Source of the DNA: Deltaproteobacteria bacterium
GTDB taxonomy: Bacteria > Desulfobacterota > Desulfomonilia > UBA1062
Length of the DNA: 12,581 nucleotides
Direction: 5' to 3'
NCBI GenBank assembly: GCA_003643935.1
Contig: QMLJ01000005.1
Coordinates: forward strand, 1-12,581
In this document: piece by piece, positions 125 through 12,581 of the stretch
How the letters are laid out: each line of letters starts with the position of its first letter
How positions within the stretch are numbered: position 1 is the stretch's first letter
Program-made: the position numbers and the translations under genes
The notes under the pieces: model-generated
The model's database searches: none
What the model was told of the DNA's origin: nothing
The model's input: the letters and a program-made list of their open reading frames with translations, nothing else

Positions 125-356
125 CTAATCCACCTCCTTTTCAAGTCTCTCTGCCATCTTAATGCCCAACGAGAAACACCTATCAAATGCATCTGAGCCA
201 GGCACATACCTTAACTATATCGCTGACATTGCCCTTACCCATGGAATAAGGCACAAGTTTCCTTATACCCGTGCAAAAGGCTATTGAGTCGTTGTTTTCC
301 TTTAAACCTTGAAATCTTGTCCTCAGATCCTTATCCCCTGTATCAGCCTCCAGACC
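125..356 (-). pseudogene. Truncated, frameshifted gene remnant between the Dps-like gene and hrb
   Basis: Reading the minus strand from 356, one frame is open for about 60 codons from GLEADTGDKDLRTRF through FCTGIRKLVPYSMGKGN to NVSDIVK. It then meets a stop. Dropping one G after the AAG codon of DIVK moves into a second frame that reads YVPGSDAFDRCFSLGIK, then MAERLEKEVD, and ends at TAG exactly before the hrb ATG. Both halves look protein-like, and the TAGATG junction is typical of coupled genes in an operon. There is no ATG, GTG or TTG near the 5' end, and the frame is closed upstream by TGA inside the Dps-like gene. The piece is therefore both headless and frameshifted. I do not recognise the family; the C-terminal helix faintly resembles the end of flavodoxin-like proteins. 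A sequencing error could explain the frameshift but not the missing start. Confidence 0.5.
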
Positions 357-840
357 TCATACTTTGCATGTCTTCAAGTATTGCCTGCAGGTCGTCCTCG
401 TGTTCCACCTCGTCCTTTAGTATCTCGAGCACTATACCATGAGTTATAAGGTCGAACTTGCTGGTAAACTCCAGCAATTTGCTGTATACTTCTATCGCAC
501 ACTGCTCCCCCTTTATGTTCTGCTCAAGGATGTTCTTAACGTAAGGATTTTCCGGTGCATCATAGCCGCAGTTGGTCATCTTGTACCACTCTTCAGGGCT
601 GAGTACAGGCTTGCCTCCCAGCTGCATTATCCTTGTGACCAGGAGTTCTGCGTGCCTGAGTTCATCTGCTGCATGTTCCGTGAGCTCTGCAATAACCTCG
701 CCCTTCATGGGGCCAGAGACCACCTTTGAACCGACCCAGTACTGGTAGTATGCAAGCCATTCGTCGCTAAGTGCCTTGTTCAGCATCTCAACGAGTTCTT
801 CTGCCTTTGAACCAACTATTTCTTTTCCTTTTGTTCCCAT
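343..840 (-). CDS. Dps-like (DPSL / thioferritin-type) ferritin-like protein
   Basis: This 165-residue four-helix-bundle protein has the carboxylate/histidine ligand pattern of a ferritin-type di-iron site: E27, E60, H63, E112, E144 and H147. It also has a cysteine pair, C91 in TNCGYDAP and C114 in GEQCAI, next to the di-iron site. That pair is the hallmark of DPSL/thioferritin proteins, which form 12-mer cages and use peroxide to oxidise and store iron. The length is normal for the family. AAGGAGGAG lies just upstream of the ATG. It follows the unknown membrane protein gene by about 70 bases that contain a hairpin, and it is the sixth gene of the perR operon. Expected role: cytoplasmic peroxide consumption and DNA/iron protection. 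A bacterioferritin annotation is common for this family, but no haem-binding methionine was identified. Confidence 0.85.
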   Translation of the reverse strand: MGTKGKEIVGSKAEELVEMLNKALSDEWLAYYQYWVGSKVVSGPMKGEVIAELTEHAADELRHAELLVTRIMQLGGKPVLSPEEWYKMTNCGYDAPENPYVKNILEQNIKGEQCAIEVYSKLLEFTSKFDLITHGIVLEILKDEVEHEDDLQAILEDMQSMRSGG

Positions 841-868
841 GTATCTCCTCCTTGCATGATATGCTCAT

Positions 869-884
869 CGTGGCAAATGCCACG
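869..884. repeat. Perfect short inverted repeat (7+2+7) between the membrane-protein gene and the Dps-like gene
   Basis: The sequence CGTGGCAAATGCCACG has two perfect 7-base arms around AA. It sits 25 bases after the stop of the 250-aa gene and about 29 bases before the ATG of the Dps-like gene. No T-run follows on the minus strand, so it is not a standard terminator. It could be an intercistronic mRNA-stabilising hairpin, a processing site, or a protein-binding palindrome governing the distal genes. The symmetry is visible; the role is inference. Confidence 0.5.
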
Positions 885-909
885 GGTTTAGTTCACAAGT
901 TTACCTGTA

Positions 910-1662
910 TCAGTCCTCTATTGTTGCGCACGGGTTATCCTGCAAAGGATGGGTCCTCAGTACAAATGAGAACATGTACGGGTACCTAGTCTCAAGGTGC
1001 TTAAGATAGAGTATCCATTCCTTTAAAAGCCTTATGTAGACGCGCTTTACATCGTTGGTAATGTGCGCAGAATCTGCCCTGGGTAGATCATCCAGGCTCT
1101 TCCTTGCATCCAATTCCTCCATGAGGTGAAAGACCGCCCATAGAAGGCCTGTGAATGACTCGTGTTCCAAGAGGTTTGGATTTGCGAGCAGGGTAAGCAC
1201 AAGATCTTTCTTGGAATCAAGCATATCCTTGAGCACATTGAGATTCATCTTCTCTGGGTTGATATTTATCTCTATGCTATCTGCAAACCCGAGCGCATCC
1301 TTGTAATCCTTTTCTGACCAAGCTTTCCTTGGTGCAAGGTGTACCTTTATATTCTCTGCATCATCCATGTAGGCTGTGATCTCGCCAAGTAGAGCTGTGC
1401 CTATCTCGGTAAAAAACGCTCCTATCACCATGTTCATCTTGTTCAGCATGGCAGTCTTCTGCTGGACCTCAAGGAGCCTTTCTATAACCACCACCACGAT
1501 AAATACCTCTAATGGAAGAAACGCAAGGTGCAGCAGCATGTATGAGAATACGTAGTGTGAATCGTGGAAAACCAGGTAATGGGTCATGTACAGTATGGCA
1601 GAGGCACCTATGAGTATGATGCCACTTACCACCATAAAACCAGGTTGCCCCTGCTTTACCAT
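910..1662 (-). CDS. Unrecognised two-TM membrane protein inside the oxidative-stress operon
   Basis: This is a 250-residue protein with two predicted membrane segments near the N-terminus (about residues 9-31 and 38-60). The second runs into a charged helix containing IERLLEVQQKTAMLNKMN. A soluble, helix-rich, acidic/basic C-terminal part of about 170 residues follows. No cysteine cluster, nucleotide-binding motif or catalytic signature is evident. The region 55-85 could form a short coiled coil extending from the membrane. The ATG lies 3 bases after the ferritin stop codon (TGATACATG), so translation is probably coupled to ferritin. That placement, between ferritin and a Dps-like protein, implies co-expression during peroxide or iron stress. 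A sensor-like or scaffold role is only a guess and I do not recognise the family. Confidence 0.8.
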   Translation of the reverse strand: MVKQGQPGFMVVSGIILIGASAILYMTHYLVFHDSHYVFSYMLLHLAFLPLEVFIVVVVIERLLEVQQKTAMLNKMNMVIGAFFTEIGTALLGEITAYMDDAENIKVHLAPRKAWSEKDYKDALGFADSIEININPEKMNLNVLKDMLDSKKDLVLTLLANPNLLEHESFTGLLWAVFHLMEELDARKSLDDLPRADSAHITNDVKRVYIRLLKEWILYLKHLETRYPYMFSFVLRTHPLQDNPCATIED

Positions 1663-1665
1663 GTA

Positions 1666-2184
1666 TCATTCCCCAGCTTTCGTTGCAGGGGGTGTAAAGA
1701 CCCGCTGCGAGAGTTCCTTGTCCAGCATGAAAAGGCTGTTGCCTTGACCACCGGTAAGTTTTAGTTTCTGCACCACTTCGTCTGCAGATGCCTCCTCTTC
1801 AACTTGCTCTGTCACAAACCACTGGAGAAAGATATTGGTTGCATGGTCATTCTCCTTTATGGCAAGGTCAACCAGGTTATTTATCAAAGATGTAACCTTT
1901 TGTTCGTGCTTGTATACCCCTTCAAATGCATCCAGGGGTGCATTCCATTCCTTGGGAGGTGCATCTATTGAAGCAAGTATAACCCTGCCACCCCTCTCTA
2001 TAACAAAGTTATAGAGTTTGTCCGCATGAACGAGTTCCTCCAGGGCCTGTGTCCTCATCCAGTTCGCAAAACCAGGTAGGTTGACTGAATGGAAATAGCT
2101 CGACATGGACAGGTATAGGTAGCTGGAGTAGAGCTCTGCATTGATTTGTTCGTTCAATGCCTTTTCAATGGATTTCTTTATCAT
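1666..2184 (-). CDS. ftn: Non-haem bacterial ferritin
   Basis: This 172-residue ferritin stores iron as a ferric mineral inside a 24-subunit cage after oxidising Fe(II). The ferroxidase ligands known from E. coli FtnA are at the same positions: E17, E50, H53, E94, Q127 and E130, with E49 and E129 available for the third iron site. Y24 is also conserved. The first residues ([20 protein letters not shown]) match the family start, and GGATAGG lies upstream of the ATG. The gene begins 7 bases after the dfx stop and is followed after 3 bases by the two-TM protein gene, so it is deep inside the operon. No haem-binding methionine pattern of bacterioferritin was seen. Co-transcription with superoxide reductase and rubrerythrin fits removal of free Fe(II) during oxygen exposure to limit Fenton chemistry. 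Confidence 0.95.
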
Positions 2185-2191
2185 CGTTTAC

Positions 2192-2566
2192 CTATCCCTT
2201 CCAAAGGCCGTGTATGTTACAGTATTCCCTGGCCTTTATATCTTCTGCCTTTATTTCGAACGTTGCTTCAGGTGCATCCCCGGGCCTTAGAAACTCCCTG
2301 TATGCCTTGCCATCTGCTATGACCTCAATCCACTCGATGTAGTGCTTTTCCTCCATTGGATGGAGGGTACTACCAACAGTGACCTTTACGCCATTAACTG
2401 TCTTCTCGACCACTGGCACGTGTTTCTCGGTCGTGCTATCTGCTGCCTTTTCATCGAAAAGTTTCATTGGCTGGCCGCAACACACCAGCTCTCCTTTTCC
2501 CTCGTGCAATACCTCGACTATGTTCCCGCACACCTCGCACTTATAAACCTGTAATCTCTCGGTCAT
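2192..2566 (-). CDS. dfx: Desulfoferrodoxin (two-iron superoxide reductase)
   Basis: This 124-residue protein reduces superoxide to hydrogen peroxide in the cytoplasm without making oxygen. The N-terminal desulforedoxin domain binds Center I through C10, C13, C29 and C30 (YKCEVCG and VCCGQPM). The catalytic Center II has H49, H69, H75, H119 and C116, with E47 and K48 in the TEKHVP loop. This numbering agrees with the well-studied Desulfoarculus baarsii enzyme. The ATG at 2566-2564 is preferred because AGGAGGTGG lies just upstream; a GTG at 2575 would place the start inside that ribosome binding site. The gene starts about 14 bases after the rubrerythrin stop and 7 bases separate it from ferritin. 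Electrons would come from rubredoxin-like donors, and the peroxide produced would be handled by the adjacent rubrerythrin. Confidence 0.96.
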
Positions 2567-2580
2567 GATTTCCACCTCCT

Positions 2581-3084
2581 CTAAAATTTCTCGAATTTAT
2601 CCTTTGGTGCACCACACACTGGACACCTCTCCGGCGGGTTACCAATATGGGTATACCCGCAGACAGGGCATATGTAGACCTCTGGGATGTCTATGTCTTT
2701 ACCCTTGTCAACCTCGGCCTTTGCATCCTTGTATAGCCCTACATGAATCTTCTCTGCCTCAATTGCATAGTAAATAGACCTCTCAGCTCCCTTTTCACCC
2801 TGCAGCCTTGCAATGGCATCAAATGCAGGGTACATCTCCTCAACCTCGTAGGTCTCGCCCTCAATGGCGGATGCAAGATTATCTGAAGTCTTGTTTAATA
2901 CACCAAGGTTCCTTGCATGGTTGGTTGCATGTACCTGTTCAGCGTAGGAGATGGCCTTGAACAGTCTCGCTACGTTGGGGTAACCTTCTTTCTCTGCTAT
3001 CTCGCTGAATGCAAGGTACTTCATGTGCGCCATGGACTCTCCCCCGAATGCGTCCTGCAGGCTTTTTTCCGTCATTTTCTTCAT
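2581..3084 (-). CDS. rbr: Rubrerythrin (peroxidase with C-terminal rubredoxin domain)
   Basis: This 167-residue protein has a ferritin-like di-iron domain (about 1-133) and a C-terminal rubredoxin domain (about 134-167). The di-iron domain carries E16, E49, H52, E111 and H114 plus the ETYEVEE segment (77-83). The rubredoxin cysteines are C139, C142, C154 and C157 (CPVCG ... CPVCG). Rubrerythrin reduces hydrogen peroxide to water with electrons passed from its rubredoxin site. The ATG at 3084 is chosen because GAAGGAGG precedes it and the sequence [17 protein letters not shown] is the normal family start. The frame is open further upstream, but that extension would overlap perR and has no ribosome binding site. 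The gene lies 55 bases downstream of perR, and its product would remove the peroxide generated by the neighbouring superoxide reductase. Confidence 0.95.
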
Positions 3085-3139
3085 AAACTTTCCTCCTTCA
3101 TATTTTCTATGTTTAATTTTCAAAGGATATAACAACCAT

Positions 3140-3547
3140 CTAGCTATGCTTTCCATTCCTTTCCAGGCAACTAGGGCATATTCCAAAGAACTCTACCCTG
3201 TCTCCCAATATCCTGTAGCCTGTTTCCTTGGAGATAACATCATTATCTATAATAACACCCTTTAAAGGCACGTCATCAATCCTTCCACAGAAAACACACC
3301 TCACATGGTAATGCTTTTCAATGTTTGCATCAAAACGTGTCTTATGGCCGGATACCTCAAGTTTCTTTATAACCCCCCTTGAGGATAGCAGCCCAAGATT
3401 TCTATAAACAGTGCCAAGGCTTATATCCGGTATCCTGGTCCTGACTGATTCGTATACCTCAAAGGCAGTAGGGTGACTTTTCATCTTTGAAAGTTCTTCC
3501 AGTATCACCTTTCTCTGCCTGGTCAACCTGAATCTCGAACCATACAT
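3140..3547 (-). CDS. perR: PerR-type peroxide-sensing Fur-family repressor
   Basis: This 135-residue winged-helix metalloregulator has the family DNA-recognition stretch ISLGTVYRNLGLL. All five regulatory metal ligands of B. subtilis PerR are present with a constant offset of 12: H25, D73, H79, H81 and D92. The four structural-zinc cysteines also match (C84, C87, C124, C127). D92 is the residue that is Asp in PerR and Glu in Fur, which favours peroxide sensing by oxidation of the metal-bound histidines over iron sensing. The ATG at 3547 follows TAAGGAAGG. It is the first gene of the operon, with a consensus promoter and a perfect palindrome upstream, so autorepression is expected. Loss of repression by peroxide would switch on the rubrerythrin, superoxide reductase and ferritin genes downstream. 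Confidence 0.93.
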   Translation of the reverse strand: MYGSRFRLTRQRKVILEELSKMKSHPTAFEVYESVRTRIPDISLGTVYRNLGLLSSRGVIKKLEVSGHKTRFDANIEKHYHVRCVFCGRIDDVPLKGVIIDNDVISKETGYRILGDRVEFFGICPSCLERNGKHS

Positions 3548-4051: not shown

Positions 4052-4606
4052 CTACTGGTCTAGAACAATAAAATCCGGATTACGTTCAATTATCTTTTCA
4101 ACGGTCCATTTAGCAAGGTCCGCTGTTACCTGTTGGCACTCAGGAGTCGCAGGTTTTCCCGGTGACATACCGATGAACTCAAGAAGTGCATTGGGATTCG
4201 TGAACCTGTAGGCCTTGCCCCAGTGATGGAATTGGACATCCTGGCAGTGTATACCACCGTACTTTTTCATCATCATCTCCCCAACCTCTGCAACACTTGC
4301 ATTCAGCTTGAGCATCTTGACAACATCCTTTTCAATATCATCCTTTGTGAAACCAAAACTCAGACCTATGGCGGCAGCAGCACCAGCCAATGCTCCACAT
4401 GTCCCAATGGCCATGTTACCTGTGCCCCCAGTAAGGCCCACGGTAGCCTTCCAGACTTCTTCGGCCATTCTGCTATCCTTGTAGCCTATTGCATCCATGA
4501 CAGCAGCAAACACGGTTGGCGCGCAAGCCTTCCATTTCTCGAGATAATCATAACCTCTTTTATATGCATCTTCAATTATTGTACTGTAATCTGCATTTCT
4601 TCCCAT
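4052..4606 (-). CDS. C_GCAxxG_C_C family putative redox-active protein
   Basis: This 184-residue protein has the spaced cysteines that define the family: C28 (KACAPTVF), C70 in GTCGALAGA, C121 (IHCQDV) and C157 (PECQQV). The glycine-rich TGGTGNMAIGTCGALAGAAAAIG section (about 59-81) is the conserved core. Members are common in anaerobes and are thought to be redox-active, possibly metal- or flavin-associated, but the reaction is unknown. H127 and H128 near C121 could be further ligands. The ATG is preceded by GGATAGGAGAG. It lies 114 bases downstream of a flavodoxin-like gene on the same strand, with an 18-bp palindrome in the gap, so it may be both co-transcribed and separately controlled. 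A partnership with the flavodoxin as electron donor is plausible but inferred. Confidence 0.85.
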   Translation of the reverse strand: MGRNADYSTIIEDAYKRGYDYLEKWKACAPTVFAAVMDAIGYKDSRMAEEVWKATVGLTGGTGNMAIGTCGALAGAAAAIGLSFGFTKDDIEKDVVKMLKLNASVAEVGEMMMKKYGGIHCQDVQFHHWGKAYRFTNPNALLEFIGMSPGKPATPECQQVTADLAKWTVEKIIERNPDFIVLDQ

Positions 4607-4720: not shown

Positions 4721-5236
4721 TCAAAGAAAATGCTTCTCAAACTTTCTGGCCTTACTAAGCATATCCCTAGCAAATTCCTTTGCATCTTCAAGGTCAGACT
4801 CGTCGGGATGTGAGAGGGCTGAATACGCAGAAGAGGCCCACTCTCTGTGTTCTGGCTTTTCCTTAAGCCTGTCCAGCACCTCAGGATCAGCACCCCCCCT
4901 GCATGTAAAAGACCCTAGTACTTCGCTGGCATTGGAGAGACTCAGGGCATGTTCTACCGCCTCTCTTGACAACCTGCTATCCTTGTGTGAACTGTGCGTG
5001 GCAAAAAGCGCAAGGCTAACACCTGGCTTAATGTTTTTTATGAAATTGTGCACTGCCACGGGTACACTATGACCATGTATTGGAAAACCCAAGAATATCA
5101 AGGAGTAATCCTCTGTATTGTCCACCTCTGTAACGGGCTTTATATCCCTATCTTCCTTCTCAAGGGCTTCATAGATAGCATCCGCCACTTTTTTCGTGTT
5201 ACCGCCCGTACTGTAATAAGTCACCAGTATCCTCAT
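4721..5236 (-). CDS. Flavodoxin-like FMN protein
   Basis: This 171-residue protein starts MRILVTYYSTGGNTKKVADA. The phosphate-binding loop STGGNT at about 9-14 is the flavodoxin signature that holds the FMN phosphate. A typical second strand and flavin loop follow (LIFLGFPIHGHSVP, about 46-59), then LALFATHSS (about 76-84). Length and layout fit the flavodoxin superfamily. The ATG at 5236 is chosen because AAGGAG lies 6 bases upstream; a TTG at 5257 has no such site. A cytoplasmic electron-transfer role is likely. A C-terminal extension rich in charged residues (about 115-171) makes it longer than a minimal flavodoxin, closer to the flavodoxin-fold proteins next to redox enzymes in anaerobes. 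Its neighbour downstream is the C_GCAxxG_C_C protein, a possible partner. Confidence 0.85.
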   Translation of the reverse strand: MRILVTYYSTGGNTKKVADAIYEALEKEDRDIKPVTEVDNTEDYSLIFLGFPIHGHSVPVAVHNFIKNIKPGVSLALFATHSSHKDSRLSREAVEHALSLSNASEVLGSFTCRGGADPEVLDRLKEKPEHREWASSAYSALSHPDESDLEDAKEFARDMLSKARKFEKHFL

Positions 5237-5317
5237 GTGTATCTCCTTACCTGGCAAGAGTTGTCCTTTTAAGTCGACACCTTTACTCGTTTCTTATCTT
5301 GCTCTTGTCTTAAAAGA

Positions 5318-5346: not shown

Positions 5347-5734
5347 GGTCTATAAGACAGGCCATCTCAACCAGAGTCCAATGACCTAATGTCAAAGACT
5401 ATACCATAAACCCCTTCTTCCCATAATATGTGGGTGCATGTTACAAGGTAATTATTGCAAGCACCAAGGCTGTTTATTATAAAATATACTAATGCCGAAT
5501 TATTCCCCTGCTCTTGTTTTCCAACAGCCCTGGTATCAAGGATTTATAAGACCTTGCCATGATTTCCTCTTTTGACTTATTCTACGTTTAATGTACTGGG
5601 ACATGCGTGCTTAATCGGCCAAGACCTCCTGAACCCTCATGTGATTCATAGAGAGATCCTTTTTCACCGATAAGCATTACGGGTAAGGTATATGTCCCCA
5701 AATCTAAACACACGGAGGGTAGGGATAACAGGTA
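5347..5734. other. Divergent intergenic region upstream of the channel gene
   Basis: About 390 bases separate the flavodoxin promoter from the channel start. No long open frame is present. A 23-codon minus-strand frame (5489-5560) has a fair ribosome binding site (GAGGAAATC before ATG) but no other support. TTGACT on the plus strand at 5572-5577 has no matching -10 box at normal distance, so the channel promoter was not located. The region is AT-rich around 5430-5500 and shows no terminator or tRNA. Confidence 0.4.
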
Positions 5735-7090
5735 ATGTTTTCCAAGAGGCGTATTACAATTGCCTTGATTCCACTCCTAGCAACCATTGCAACCGGGACG
5801 CTGGGATACATGCTCATAGAAGGCTATACTGCATTCGACGGTCTATACATGACGATTATTACGATCATGACCGTGGGTTACAACGAGGTAAGGCCCTTGT
5901 CGGGGGCAGGCAGGGCATTTACCATCGTCCTTATTCTCATGGGCTTTGCCAGCCTTGCCTTTGCAGGTAACATCCTGATTGAATCCCTAGTACAAAACAT
6001 ATGGAGTGGCAGATCGGAGAGGAAAAATATGAAAAAGAAGATCACAGAACTAAAATCGCATTACATTATATGCGGTTTCGGAAGGGTAGGTGCAACGGCT
6101 GCAGAACTCCTCAAGATGGAGGGTGCAGGATTTGTCATCATAGAAAAAAATCCTGATCACTGCCAGGATATCAGAGAAAAGGGCTACATCTTCCTACAAG
6201 CTGATGCAACAACCGAGGAAGCACTGATGGATGCCGGCATAAAGCGTGCAAGGGGTCTTGTTGCCCTGCTTAATTCTGACCCGGAAAACCTATTTATTGT
6301 CCTCACTGCCAGGGAGCTCAATCCAACGCTACAGATAATATCAAGGGCCGAGGATGTGTCGTCAGAAAAGAAGATATTAAGGGCAGGTGCTGACAAGGTC
6401 GTATCTCCTTTTATCACTGCAGGCAGACAGATAGCACGTGACATACTCTTGTCCACGGGTAAAGAGCTTGATCTTGATGAATCCTGTGAATGCCAGGAAG
6501 CAAGCTCACAGTGGATAACCTTGGTAAAGGACAATTCACTCATAGGAAAACCAATAAAGACAGCATCAAAAGAGATGGGCAGGGATATAATAGGCCTCAG
6601 GAGAAAGGCCCTAGACAGTATATACCCTGATCCAGAGACAATACTTGAAGAAGGAGATACACTCCTCACATTAGGTGTATCGCAGAAAAAGCAAGGCATT
6701 GAGAGGCGTTCCAGCGGGATACCCAAGATTGCCATTGTGGACGATAACCAGGTGATACTAGGGCTCTACACACGCCTGTTCCAAAAGGCAGGGTTCAACC
6801 CTCTATGTGCAACAACCGGCAAGCAGGGTCTGGAACTCATACTAAAGGAGAAGCCTGCCGCAGCTGTCATAGACTATACGCTACCGGTTATCTCGGGCAT
6901 AGACATATGCCGAGAGATAAGAAAGTCAAAGGAACATGACGGTGTAAAACTGATTCTCTTTACCGAAGACAATGCACCTGAAACTAGGAAGCGTGCCATG
7001 GAAAATGGGGCACATGCTGTTGTGGTAAAAAACGCAGATGCATCTGAAGTGGTTGAGACCGTGATACAATGCCTCAGAGAAAAGCACTAG
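5735..7090 (+). CDS. Two-TM potassium-channel-like protein with RCK module and C-terminal response-regulator receiver domain
   Basis: This 451-residue inner-membrane protein has TM1 (about 7-28), a pore loop with filter T46-V47-G48-Y49-N50-E51, and TM2 (about 60-84). The cytoplasmic TrkA-N/RCK domain (about 107-235) has the nucleotide-binding GFGRVG motif (114-119) and an acidic residue E137 ending the second strand. A TrkA-C domain follows (about 255-316). A receiver domain fills 329-451 with the complete phospho-acceptor set: D336, D337, D380, T410 and K432. Canonical K+ channels read TVGYG; here the last glycine is N50. An in-frame TAA just upstream fixes the first possible ATG at 5735, with GGAGGG/AGGG 10-15 bases before it. 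The layout suggests channel gating by nucleotide or ligand binding plus phosphorylation from an unseen histidine kinase. It is the only plus-strand gene here and ends 27 bases from the convergent gene. Confidence 0.9.
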   Translation: MFSKRRITIALIPLLATIATGTLGYMLIEGYTAFDGLYMTIITIMTVGYNEVRPLSGAGRAFTIVLILMGFASLAFAGNILIESLVQNIWSGRSERKNMKKKITELKSHYIICGFGRVGATAAELLKMEGAGFVIIEKNPDHCQDIREKGYIFLQADATTEEALMDAGIKRARGLVALLNSDPENLFIVLTARELNPTLQIISRAEDVSSEKKILRAGADKVVSPFITAGRQIARDILLSTGKELDLDESCECQEASSQWITLVKDNSLIGKPIKTASKEMGRDIIGLRRKALDSIYPDPETILEEGDTLLTLGVSQKKQGIERRSSGIPKIAIVDDNQVILGLYTRLFQKAGFNPLCATTGKQGLELILKEKPAAAVIDYTLPVISGIDICREIRKSKEHDGVKLILFTEDNAPETRKRAMENGAHAVVVKNADASEVVETVIQCLREKH

Positions 7091-7117: not shown

Positions 7118-8119
7118 TCAAGAACCCTGCATCATCTCGTACTCACGGCTTGCACCAAACCTTATACCTATCCATGCCCCGCATATAACGGCATAGCCAG
7201 CAACTGCCACCTTAAAGATAAGTGCCAGGTGGAAAGAGATACCACTAAGACCCGCCACAAGAGAGAATATCCAGATGGCTATGTCTGCGATTATGGCAAA
7301 CAGGAAAACCCATAATACACCTGCCCAGCCAGAGATTTTCTTCACGCCGGCACCGTCACACCTGCCCAGTCTCACGTCACAACGCGACTGTGCATTGGAA
7401 AACATCCATTGCAAGAATGCAATTATTACAACTGTAAAGAAGAAATCAGGGATCAAGGCCTGCATTATAGGTATATTTTCTGCACCTATCTTGGCTGCGG
7501 CTGCAGGGAAGCCCCTGTTTGCAATGCAGGCGTTTATAAAGCCCTGTAACACCATGAACGGGAATGCATGTTCCATGAAGAGGTAAGACCCCATAGGCAC
7601 TGGTTTCGATTTCTCACTTGCATTTAGAGCAGCTGCAAAGGATGGCAGATCTTTTAATATAAAATGTTTTATCAGAGGAGTGGTTGTAATTACCACTGCA
7701 ACAAATGCAATCACACCAGTTAGCGTGGGCCCGATCTTTACATGCGTAAACTTTATGCCGAGATAGACTATGAGCATCATGACTACCCCGTACAGGAACG
7801 CCCTTGGCACTAATAGTTCCCAGATATACAACGGTGAACCTGTACCTTCCACGGGTGTTATACCTTCGAGATCGAGCTCACCGTGTATGTATTCCACTCG
7901 TGCAGTGTAAATCGGCATGAACAGGTGGATGATTGTGAAAAAAGGTATTGCGCACGCAATGAAACCGAGGACCGTGTTCCTGTCATAGTGCTCCGGCGAC
8001 AAGGCTATGACAAGAAGAATAGATAACACCATGACTATTGCAAGTCCTATAATATTACCAACTATCTGGGCACCAATCACCTCTTTCAAGGAATGTTTCT
8101 TTTTCCCTGCCTCTGCCAT
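7118..8119 (-). CDS. Unrecognised eight-TM integral membrane protein
   Basis: This 333-residue protein is hydrophobic, with about eight membrane segments near residues 18-40, 48-70, 103-121, 131-150, 181-200, 219-240, 265-288 and 297-320. A conserved-looking polar section after TM2 (YTARVEYIHGELDLEGITPVE, about 71-91) and another around 241-262 containing C247 and C254 are probably cytoplasmic loops. Histidines occur at 65, 79, 152 and 184. No transporter, channel or enzyme signature was recognised. The ATG at 8119 is backed by AAAAGGAGG. It is preceded by a leader of about 125 bases with a candidate promoter and a PerR-box-like element, so oxidant- or metal-responsive expression is possible. 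It converges with the channel gene and no terminator was seen in the 27-base gap. Confidence 0.8.
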   Translation of the reverse strand: MAEAGKKKHSLKEVIGAQIVGNIIGLAIVMVLSILLVIALSPEHYDRNTVLGFIACAIPFFTIIHLFMPIYTARVEYIHGELDLEGITPVEGTGSPLYIWELLVPRAFLYGVVMMLIVYLGIKFTHVKIGPTLTGVIAFVAVVITTTPLIKHFILKDLPSFAAALNASEKSKPVPMGSYLFMEHAFPFMVLQGFINACIANRGFPAAAAKIGAENIPIMQALIPDFFFTVVIIAFLQWMFSNAQSRCDVRLGRCDGAGVKKISGWAGVLWVFLFAIIADIAIWIFSLVAGLSGISFHLALIFKVAVAGYAVICGAWIGIRFGASREYEMMQGS

Positions 8120-11277: not shown

Positions 11278-11354
11278 GGCGCCTGACGCCTAGTGCCCGA
11301 CGCCTGACGCCTGGGTTTTAATGCCCGGTGCCTGGTGCCTGACGCCTGGCGCCT
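11278..11354. repeat. Array of eleven contiguous heptamer units
   Basis: The 77 bases divide exactly into eleven 7-base units. On the plus strand these are GGCGCCT, GACGCCT, AGTGCCC, GACGCCT, GACGCCT, GGGTTTT, AATGCCC, GGTGCCT, GGTGCCT, GACGCCT and GGCGCCT. Ten follow the degenerate consensus RRYGCCY, or RGGCRYY on the other strand, allowing for one or two deviations. The sixth (GGGTTTT) breaks the motif but keeps the 7-base register. The first and last two units mirror each other. The array begins inside the stop codon of the PpiC/SurA-like gene and ends about 120 bases before uvrA. Members share a GCC core, so many alternative hairpins are possible. It looks like an interspersed heptamer repeat family, not a simple satellite. 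Confidence 0.85.
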
Positions 11355-12201
11355 AAATATATATCCCAACAAAGTACTTGTCAGATATTGTCTTGAGCCA
11401 GTGTTTGAACACCTTCTTCCTGTACCTATCCTCCAGGATATGTTTTATACCGTCCTTTGCCTCAGCAAACGTCTTGTTCCCCTTTGTTCCCACATCTAAG
11501 AGCTTGAAGACAAATGCATATTTCCCCTTTCTCACAGGCCCGACAACCTCGCCCTTCTTTGCACGGCCAAGGGCTGCCTTTACCTCGGGAGACAGGTCCT
11601 TGACCGGTATCCACCCCATGTCACATCCACCGTGAATGAGCACATCGGAATATTCAAGCGCAACCTTGTCAAAGGGCTCACCCTGCCTTATGGCATCAAG
11701 GACACTTTTTATCTTTGTCTCGTCGTTCTTTATCACGATCTGCGCTAGCCTCACTGAAAAAGATCCCTTGTATTCATCGTGGGACCTGTAATAGTCTTTT
11801 ATCATTCTGTCTGTCACAACCACCCTTGATCTCACCACTATGTCCATGAGCCTTTCCTTCATAATGAAGATCCTTGCATCCTCAATTGAAAGGCCTGTCT
11901 TGTTGGAGACATTCTTTACCTCTTCATCTTCTGGAGCCGGTATGCCCATTTCCTGGCAAGTCTTTTCTACAATAATGTTTTCAACCATGAGCTGCAGTAC
12001 GGAATGAAGCACGTTTGGCGCATTCTTATCAACGCCTAGCTTCCTTGCCTTTGCAATCACGTCAGAGAGCATAATAACCTTATCATCCACAACCGCTGCC
12101 ACGCCGTCTATGGTGCCGGCATGCAGCATGCTACATTGACCACCAATGGATACCAGTAAGATCGTCATCAACAAAAGACTTTTAACGCAAAGATATCTCA
12201 T
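11353..12201 (-). CDS. Periplasmic SurA/PpiC-type peptidyl-prolyl isomerase/chaperone
   Basis: This 282-residue protein has an N-terminal signal peptide (MRYLCVKSLLLMTILLVSIG, likely cleavage after A28 in MLHAG). A SurA-like N-terminal chaperone region follows, starting TIDGVAAVVDDKVIMLSDV. A parvulin domain at about 145-240 contains LAQIVIK, FDKVALEYSD and the GGCDMGWIP motif. A C-terminal helix (about 245-282) completes the chaperone part. Such proteins assist folding of outer-membrane and periplasmic proteins by cis-trans isomerisation of proline bonds. With one parvulin domain it is shorter than E. coli SurA, which has two. The start overlaps the 3' end of another PpiC gene by 20 bases, so the pair is translationally coupled and probably arose by duplication. 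The weak ribosome binding site (AGGTGGG) suits coupling. Confidence 0.9.
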   Translation of the reverse strand: MRYLCVKSLLLMTILLVSIGGQCSMLHAGTIDGVAAVVDDKVIMLSDVIAKARKLGVDKNAPNVLHSVLQLMVENIIVEKTCQEMGIPAPEDEEVKNVSNKTGLSIEDARIFIMKERLMDIVVRSRVVVTDRMIKDYYRSHDEYKGSFSVRLAQIVIKNDETKIKSVLDAIRQGEPFDKVALEYSDVLIHGGCDMGWIPVKDLSPEVKAALGRAKKGEVVGPVRKGKYAFVFKLLDVGTKGNKTFAEAKDGIKHILEDRYRKKVFKHWLKTISDKYFVGIYI

Positions 12202-12581
12202 TTATCACATCCCACCTGACTTCTGGCCTGTACCTTTGTTTAAGGCTAGCAATCCATTTTCTGTAGAGCTGTTCAAACTTCCTGTTTGTTAAATTATCTT
12301 TTACCTCGAGTTCAACATCTTCAAGCGGGGCTATGCCGGGTTTTGTCTTCGAAGCCACGTAGAAGATATGATAACCCCTCTTCGTACTTATTATACCGGA
12401 ATAACGCTTCACAGGGATGGAAAACACCACTCTTTCCACTTCCCTTGGCAACTCTCCCTTCGTAAATACTCCCATAAAGCCGTGGTTCTTTGCGTCCTCT
12501 GACTCCGAGTATTCTCTTACAACCGCGTCAAGCGAAGCCCCAGATCTCAGAAGTAAAAGCGCCTTTCTTGCCTTGAACCTG
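12182..12581 (-). CDS. PpiC-type peptidyl-prolyl isomerase, C-terminal part, runs off the window
   Basis: The frame is open to the right edge of the window, so the true start lies beyond base 12581 and an internal ATG at 12475 is not the start. The visible 132 residues begin RFKARKALLLLRSGASLDAV. They then show the parvulin pattern VREYSES, NHGFMGVFTKGELP, VVFSIPVKRYSGI and KRGYHIFYV, followed by a C-terminal helix with KDNLTNRKFEQLYRKWIASL. The protein is expected to act in the periplasm or on the outer face of the inner membrane as a foldase, but its N-terminal signal or anchor is not visible. It overlaps the following SurA-like gene by 20 bases and the two would form a foldase operon. Confidence 0.88.
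   Translation of the reverse strand, partial: RFKARKALLLLRSGASLDAVVREYSESEDAKNHGFMGVFTKGELPREVERVVFSIPVKRYSGIISTKRGYHIFYVASKTKPGIAPLEDVELEVKDNLTNRKFEQLYRKWIASLKQRYRPEVRWDVINEISLR

Follow-up and report, generated by a model that had tools for sequence, protein, structure and literature searches.

The stretch of DNA analysed here (the window) comprises 12,581 nucleotides of contig QMLJ01000005.1 of a Deltaproteobacteria bacterium (assembly GCA_003643935.1), and carries on its forward strand a gene for a channel-like protein that ends in a response-regulator receiver. The gene (positions 5735 to 7090) is one open frame from ATG to stop that encodes 451 amino acids, with an in-frame TAA upstream at 5726-5728. 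The predicted protein begins with a two-transmembrane pore (Ion_trans_2, residues 14-86, positions 5774-5992, Pfam E 1.7e-14). Alignment of the fused loci places the selectivity filter, T46-V-G-Y-N50-E51, at 5870-5887, with Asn at the usual Gly position. The pore is followed by the RCK N-lobe (TrkA_N, residues 110-225, 6062-6409, E 7.6e-36), which contains the nucleotide motif GFGRVG at residues 114-119, and by the RCK C-lobe (TrkA_C, residues 260-313, 6512-6673, E 9.5e-8). A linker of about 17 residues (314-330, 6674-6724), mostly of low confidence in a structure model built from three sequences, leads to the receiver (Response_reg, residues 332-443, 6728-7063, E 1.2e-19), whose phospho-acceptor D380 is encoded at 6872-6874. 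Between pore and RCK lies the ATG codon of Met99 (6029-6031), a putative internal start for a soluble RCK-REC protein of 353 amino acids, preceded at a distance of six bases by the Shine-Dalgarno-like sequence GGAGAGG (6016-6022). All four Pfam domains exceed the curated cut-offs. The sequence-only reading of this DNA, i.e. that a pore, a full RCK and a receiver are encoded in one frame, is thus borne out; the residues it had named (D336, D337, D380, T410 and K432) are all correct, N433 follows the Lys and V429 precedes it by three positions, and the junction of RCK and receiver has neither a stop nor a frameshift. The Asn in the filter and the Met99 start had escaped that reading.

The same fusion is present in eight aligned relatives from other genomes, at 45-60% identity to the window protein, and is therefore neither a chance event nor an assembly error; a fusion made by the assembly was rejected on this ground. 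A scan of genome contigs with six short peptide patterns retrieved two full-length fusions, L011 (54% identity to the window protein) and L012 (52%), as well as one locus, L013, with the channel part only (loci are designated L, genomes G). Matches spanning channel and receiver were found in at least 58 genomes after removal of repeats. This count includes a fragment without the pore (G469), a match in which the first 74 positions are missing (G595), three matches with a stop inside (G594, G552 and G578) and two matches extending into masked sequence (G612 and G613), and it takes G470 as G420. The loci of 37 of the 58 genomes were examined residue by residue; nine repeats were dropped, and loci already recognised as identical genes were left out. 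The giant forms in G612 (2928 amino acids) and G613 (3806 amino acids) are artefacts, their frames entering masked N stretches. The architecture is thus not specific to this gene but is the property of a family. Searches of the open-access literature aimed at a channel-RCK-receiver fusion gave no paper that evidently deals with one, although one of the papers found could mention it, and the restriction to open access makes this absence weak evidence.

The fusion has a patchy distribution among classes, and in one of them it is dense. Within the window's class it was found in at least 1 of 42 genomes, the window's own being the one; in at least 7 of 395 genomes of a sample of its phylum (from query ranges); in 1 of 17 genomes of the class of G413; in at least 5 of 85 of the class of G412, including a fragment that stands at the end of a contig; and in at least 47 of 257 of the class of G367. 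The group searched as the phylum of the L012 genome gave at least 2 of 52 genomes, and since the window's phylum comprises no fewer than 395 genomes, this group of 52 is probably a different phylum. The number of candidates scored per genome was capped (at 40 in the window's class, 4 in the phylum sample, 19 in the class of G412, 6 in that of G367 and 32 in the L012 group), so misses are possible. Plain channels, which have the pore and RCK only, were detected in 21 of 40 relatives of the window's class (E <= 1e-30). In a tree of the pore-RCK part of 9 fused and 45 plain proteins the fused ones formed one clade (FastTree support 1.0, ultrafast bootstrap 100), and with 36 fused and the same 45 plain proteins the clade again had a support of 1.0, on a long stem (0.77). 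L054, a repeat of L014, was excluded from both trees and from the alignment of plain relatives, and L077, a fragment, from the larger tree; the plain set was gathered with a fused query and is an incomplete sample of RCK channels. On these trees the fused channels appear to share one origin, apart from the plain ones. A recent foreign origin of the window gene is not favoured by its composition (GC content 0.467, and 0.482 at third codon positions, both between the extremes of the other window genes), which leaves room for an older transfer; the three matches in plasmid records at E <= 1e-30 are all from Rhodococcus, and none covers 80% of the query.

The receiver of the window protein is complete with respect to the acid pocket, the phospho-acceptor Asp, the Thr switch and the Lys. 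D336, D337, D380 and T410 are invariant in all 37 distinct fused loci, and K432 is kept in 35 of 35, two further loci being masked at this position. A degenerate receiver was rejected on account of this invariance. The suspicion that Val near K432 and a residue other than Pro after it point to atypical signalling was not confirmed. Position 429 is Val in 34 of 35 loci (Phe in the remaining one), and position 433 is Ser in 29, Gly in 3, Thr in 2 and Asn in one, but never Pro; since these features are nearly family-wide and the Thr and Lys are invariant, we regard them as family traits and not as signs of decay. The receiver also matches solved receivers, both by sequence and in the structure model, where target TM-scores reach 0.94. 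It looks phosphorylatable as judged from its residues.

Phosphorelay components are tied to the channel in three relatives. In G413 a single-strand operon consists of an HDOD-like gene (assigned by eye), a PAS hybrid kinase (PAS, HisKA, HATPase_c and Response_reg domains), an Hpt gene, a REC-GGDEF gene and then the channel. In L011/G420 the series begins with an Hpt-like gene, followed by REC-HisKA and HDOD-like genes (the latter by eye), a hybrid kinase gene and a REC gene, 2 bases after which the channel starts. The hybrid kinases of the two operons are 55% identical over 618 residues, which indicates that the phosphorelay link was kept between classes. The third case is the 614-residue channel of G098 (L071:5445-7289), which has its own C-terminal Hpt domain (E 1.1e-9) after the receiver, in the same chain. 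As for the window's own genome, which is 82% complete, 17 HisKA matches lie above the cut-off, and any of these proteins could be the partner kinase.

Taken together, we consider it probable that the product of the gene is an MthK-like K+ channel and that phosphorylation of its C-terminal receiver controls the gating ring. A sensor kinase could then open or close the channel directly and not via gene switching. The phospho-control suggested by the sequence-only reading is in this way partly supported, by the invariant residues and by the phosphorelay parts of the three relatives.

The RCK part may receive further inputs. The GxGRxG motif has its Arg in 35 of 36 fused channels (Gln in one), and residue 137 is mostly acidic (Glu in 29, Asp in 6, Asn in one of 36), as expected for an RCK that binds nucleotides. 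The Ca2+ site of MthK, which we take to be D184, E210 and E212, aligns with D182, R204 and E206 of the window protein; the position of E210 is Arg in 37 of 37 fused loci, so gating by Ca2+ in the manner of MthK is unlikely. A second candidate ligand is cyclic di-AMP (c-di-AMP). In 10 of the 37 fused loci (including L072, L107, L108, L111 and L104) the next gene seen downstream is cdaA, which encodes a c-di-AMP synthase, on the same strand and at a distance of 99-466 bases by open-frame ends. Five of these ten neighbours were scanned with Pfam and all had DAC and CdaA_N; five neighbours of other fused loci, scanned alongside, proved to be different genes. Downstream of cdaA, similarity points to genes that we take to be cdaR and glmM. 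By comparison, cdaA was present in 0 of 45 plain-channel loci; here and at several fused loci the flanks covered about 1.5 kb or less on each side, and at others they extended to about 6 kb. Such neighbourhoods in ten relatives suggest that two signalling systems meet around K+.

It may be argued from these data that the gate is set by ligands alone, a nucleotide at TrkA_N and c-di-AMP at TrkA_C, and that the receiver mainly serves to localise or assemble the channel, or draws off phosphate as a sink for another relay. Apart from the cdaA neighbours, this explanation can draw on the solved relative GsuK, which is activated by ADP and NAD+ according to passages of PMC3510474, on the TrkA_C/RCK_C domains of KtrA and its relatives, which bind c-di-AMP according to PMC5575661, and on the DAC domain that 36 of the 42 genomes in the window's class possess. 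The strict conservation of all phosphorylation residues speaks against it, as do the Hpt-bearing channel, the two phosphorelay operons and the scanned neighbours other than cdaA; moreover, no cdaA adjoins the window's channel gene, and its genome has no DAC match, which may reflect incompleteness. We therefore regard a gate governed by ligands alone as unlikely. In the explanation that we favour, the gating ring is set by phosphotransfer to D380, a nucleotide would act on it as well, and c-di-AMP may do so in some lineages.

The pore helices are modelled at residues 5-29, 33-45 and 57-90. The filter reads TVGYN and not TVGYG, with the Asn codon AAC at 5882-5884. Among the fused channels its fifth position is Gly in 33 of 36, Ser in 2 and Asn in the window protein only; among the plain relatives it is other than Gly in 18 of 45 (Arg, Lys, Gln, Glu, Met or Ser, counted by eye). 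The view that the Asn is unique in kind was thus rejected, and the last filter position drifts within the channel family. It is also apparent that the filter Tyr is replaced by Phe in 24 of 36 fused channels; in GsuK the same replacement could be part of the cause of a weak K+ selectivity (passages of PMC3510474). The ion selectivity of these channels may be unusual. One could go further and suppose that the protein is phospho-controlled but not K+-selective, i.e. that TVGYN is weakly selective or non-conducting and that a soluble RCK-REC protein does the regulation. The Asn of the window and the drift of this position fit such a view, but T46, V47, G48, Y49 and E51 are kept, Gly predominates in the fused family, and the pore domain lies well above the Pfam cut-off, so we find it quite improbable. 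That the receiver is a functionless accretion, carried along after a chance fusion, would suit the patchy spread (at least 1 of 42 and 1 of 17 genomes in two classes) but is scarcely credible for a receiver whose residues are invariant in 37 loci, eight of them 45-60% identical to the window, and for a fusion present in at least 47 of 257 genomes of one class.

Returning to the phosphorylation-controlled channel, its subunit composition may be reflected in Met99. By HMMER alignment this residue corresponds to Met107 of MthK, the internal start that supplies four soluble RCK subunits (PMC9440719 and PMC2920069; the latter argues that octameric rings are irrelevant to KefC). Met occupies the aligned column in 36 of 36 fused channels as opposed to 5 of 45 plain ones. 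Moreover, in the 36 fused loci the anti-Shine-Dalgarno pairing energy before Met99 averages -5.92, compared to -3.75 expected from synonymous codons, whereas 255 other Met codons, taken as a control, average -2.85 against an expected -2.94. The pairing energy ranks at or below 0.1 among synonymous draws for Met99 in 10 of 36 loci versus 12 of 255 for the other Met codons, and a core Shine-Dalgarno motif is present in 20 of 36 versus 30 of 255. Met99 is thus a likely, though not proven, internal start; its invariance, its alignment with Met107 and the preceding GGAGAGG suggest that a soluble RCK-REC protein may be made as well.

On this basis we tentatively propose, as a possibility with somewhat less than even chances, a family of two-product, phosphorelay-gated K+ channels in which one gene gives, by internal initiation, a gating ring with eight copies each of RCK and REC, so that a phosphorelay, adenine nucleotides and, in the cdaA lineage, c-di-AMP would act on one pore. 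What has been observed is the order of the domains, the conservation of the phosphorylation residues, the monophyly of the fused channels, the sequence signal at Met99 and the gene neighbourhoods of the relatives; the biochemical steps of the phospho-controlled channel that we consider probable, and the kinase that acts in this organism, are inferred. One message would be translated into the full channel (451 amino acids) and, from Met99, the soluble RCK-REC protein (353 amino acids), four of each forming the ring under one tetrameric pore. A histidine kinase or an Hpt protein would then phosphorylate D380, and the receivers, once phosphorylated, would make different contacts, move the RCK hinges and alter the open probability of the pore. 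Since an internal start would provide eight receivers per pore, it would offer a route to steep responses.

The targets of most receivers are DNA, c-di-GMP enzymes and motors. If a receiver sits on the gating ring of a K+ channel, kinases would be able to set the membrane potential or K+ directly, in which case two-component signalling would act on either within the time of phosphotransfer. The parts are known but their combination, a K+-channel RCK with a receiver, appears to be new, and the fusion puts post-translational two-component control of ion flux into one testable protein.

A number of observations weigh against the interpretation proposed here. Apart from the receiver of the channel itself, the window lacks genes for a kinase, an Hpt protein or a REC protein. 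When two kinase cores served as queries against the wider flanks of 28 distinct fused loci, only 2 had a phosphorelay operon, two (G506 and G697) had a kinase within about 4 kb on the opposite strand, and 24 had no kinase that was seen, although divergent kinases could be missed. Of the 21 HisKA matches in the window's genome, 20 were compared with the two operon kinases and none is closely related to them, the best hit (123 bits) covering the kinase core only; this genome is, however, only 82% complete. Three of the 47 matches in the class of G367 hold an internal stop codon, and the filter Asn makes conduction and selectivity of the window member uncertain. With respect to Met99, 9 of 36 loci (e.g. 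L012, L104 and L134) show no pairing excess, lying at or beyond the weak half of the synonymous draws; purine-rich Glu, Lys and Arg codons give part of the Shine-Dalgarno signal; in 14 of the 45 plain channels, which all belong to one family, a Met lies one residue closer to the nucleotide motif; and the loci are related and not independent, which inflates the count. Finally, the structure model is weak (mean pLDDT, i.e. predicted local distance difference test score, 64.7; predicted TM-score 0.32). Foldseek ranked MthK and GsuK first, with whole-chain TM-scores of 0.4 or less and a root mean square deviation near 18 A, and the model is too weak for contacts between domains and gives no information on the gating ring.

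The channel gene is flanked by a divergent flavodoxin-like gene (4721-5257) and by a convergent gene on the reverse strand (7118-8119), whose product of 333 amino acids is membrane-like by eye and matches no Pfam family at E <= 0.1. The other window genes noted are also on the reverse strand. An oxidative-stress block at 343-3547 comprises a FUR-family regulator, rubrerythrin, desulfoferrodoxin, ferritin and a ferritin-like protein, and includes a 250-residue protein without a Pfam match (910-1662). A putative redox-active protein of the C_GCAxxG_C_C family is encoded at 4052-4606, and two adjoining PpiC-type rotamase frames with a 20-base overlap lie at 11353-12580, the second running off the window.

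Among known systems, MthK, the Ca2+-gated K+ channel of Methanothermobacter, is the best solved sequence match to the window protein (residues 9-324, E 2.7e-30) and has the same two-transmembrane pore and RCK N- and C-lobes in the same order. However, its chains stop at RCK, where the window protein continues into the receiver, and its Ca2+-site set is not matched, R204 standing at what we take to be the position of E210. GsuK of Geobacter sulfurreducens is likewise an RCK channel with a nucleotide-binding RCK, but its chain gave no match to a receiver. The plain channels of the same phylum, about 340 residues long and, in the window's class, 33-40% identical to the window protein, share the pore and RCK, yet they end after TrkA_C, their last filter position is variable and few have Met in the Met99 column. 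KtrA/TrkA and other proteins with a c-di-AMP-binding RCK_C have RCK_N and RCK_C as in the window protein, but KtrA is a separate transporter subunit without a pore in its chain, and c-di-AMP binding is only a candidate property here. Response regulators with an output other than DNA binding include the CheY and PleD types, which share the D-D-D-T-K set; the window protein differs from them in that its effector is a channel, its receiver is C-terminal and its residue 433 is not Pro.
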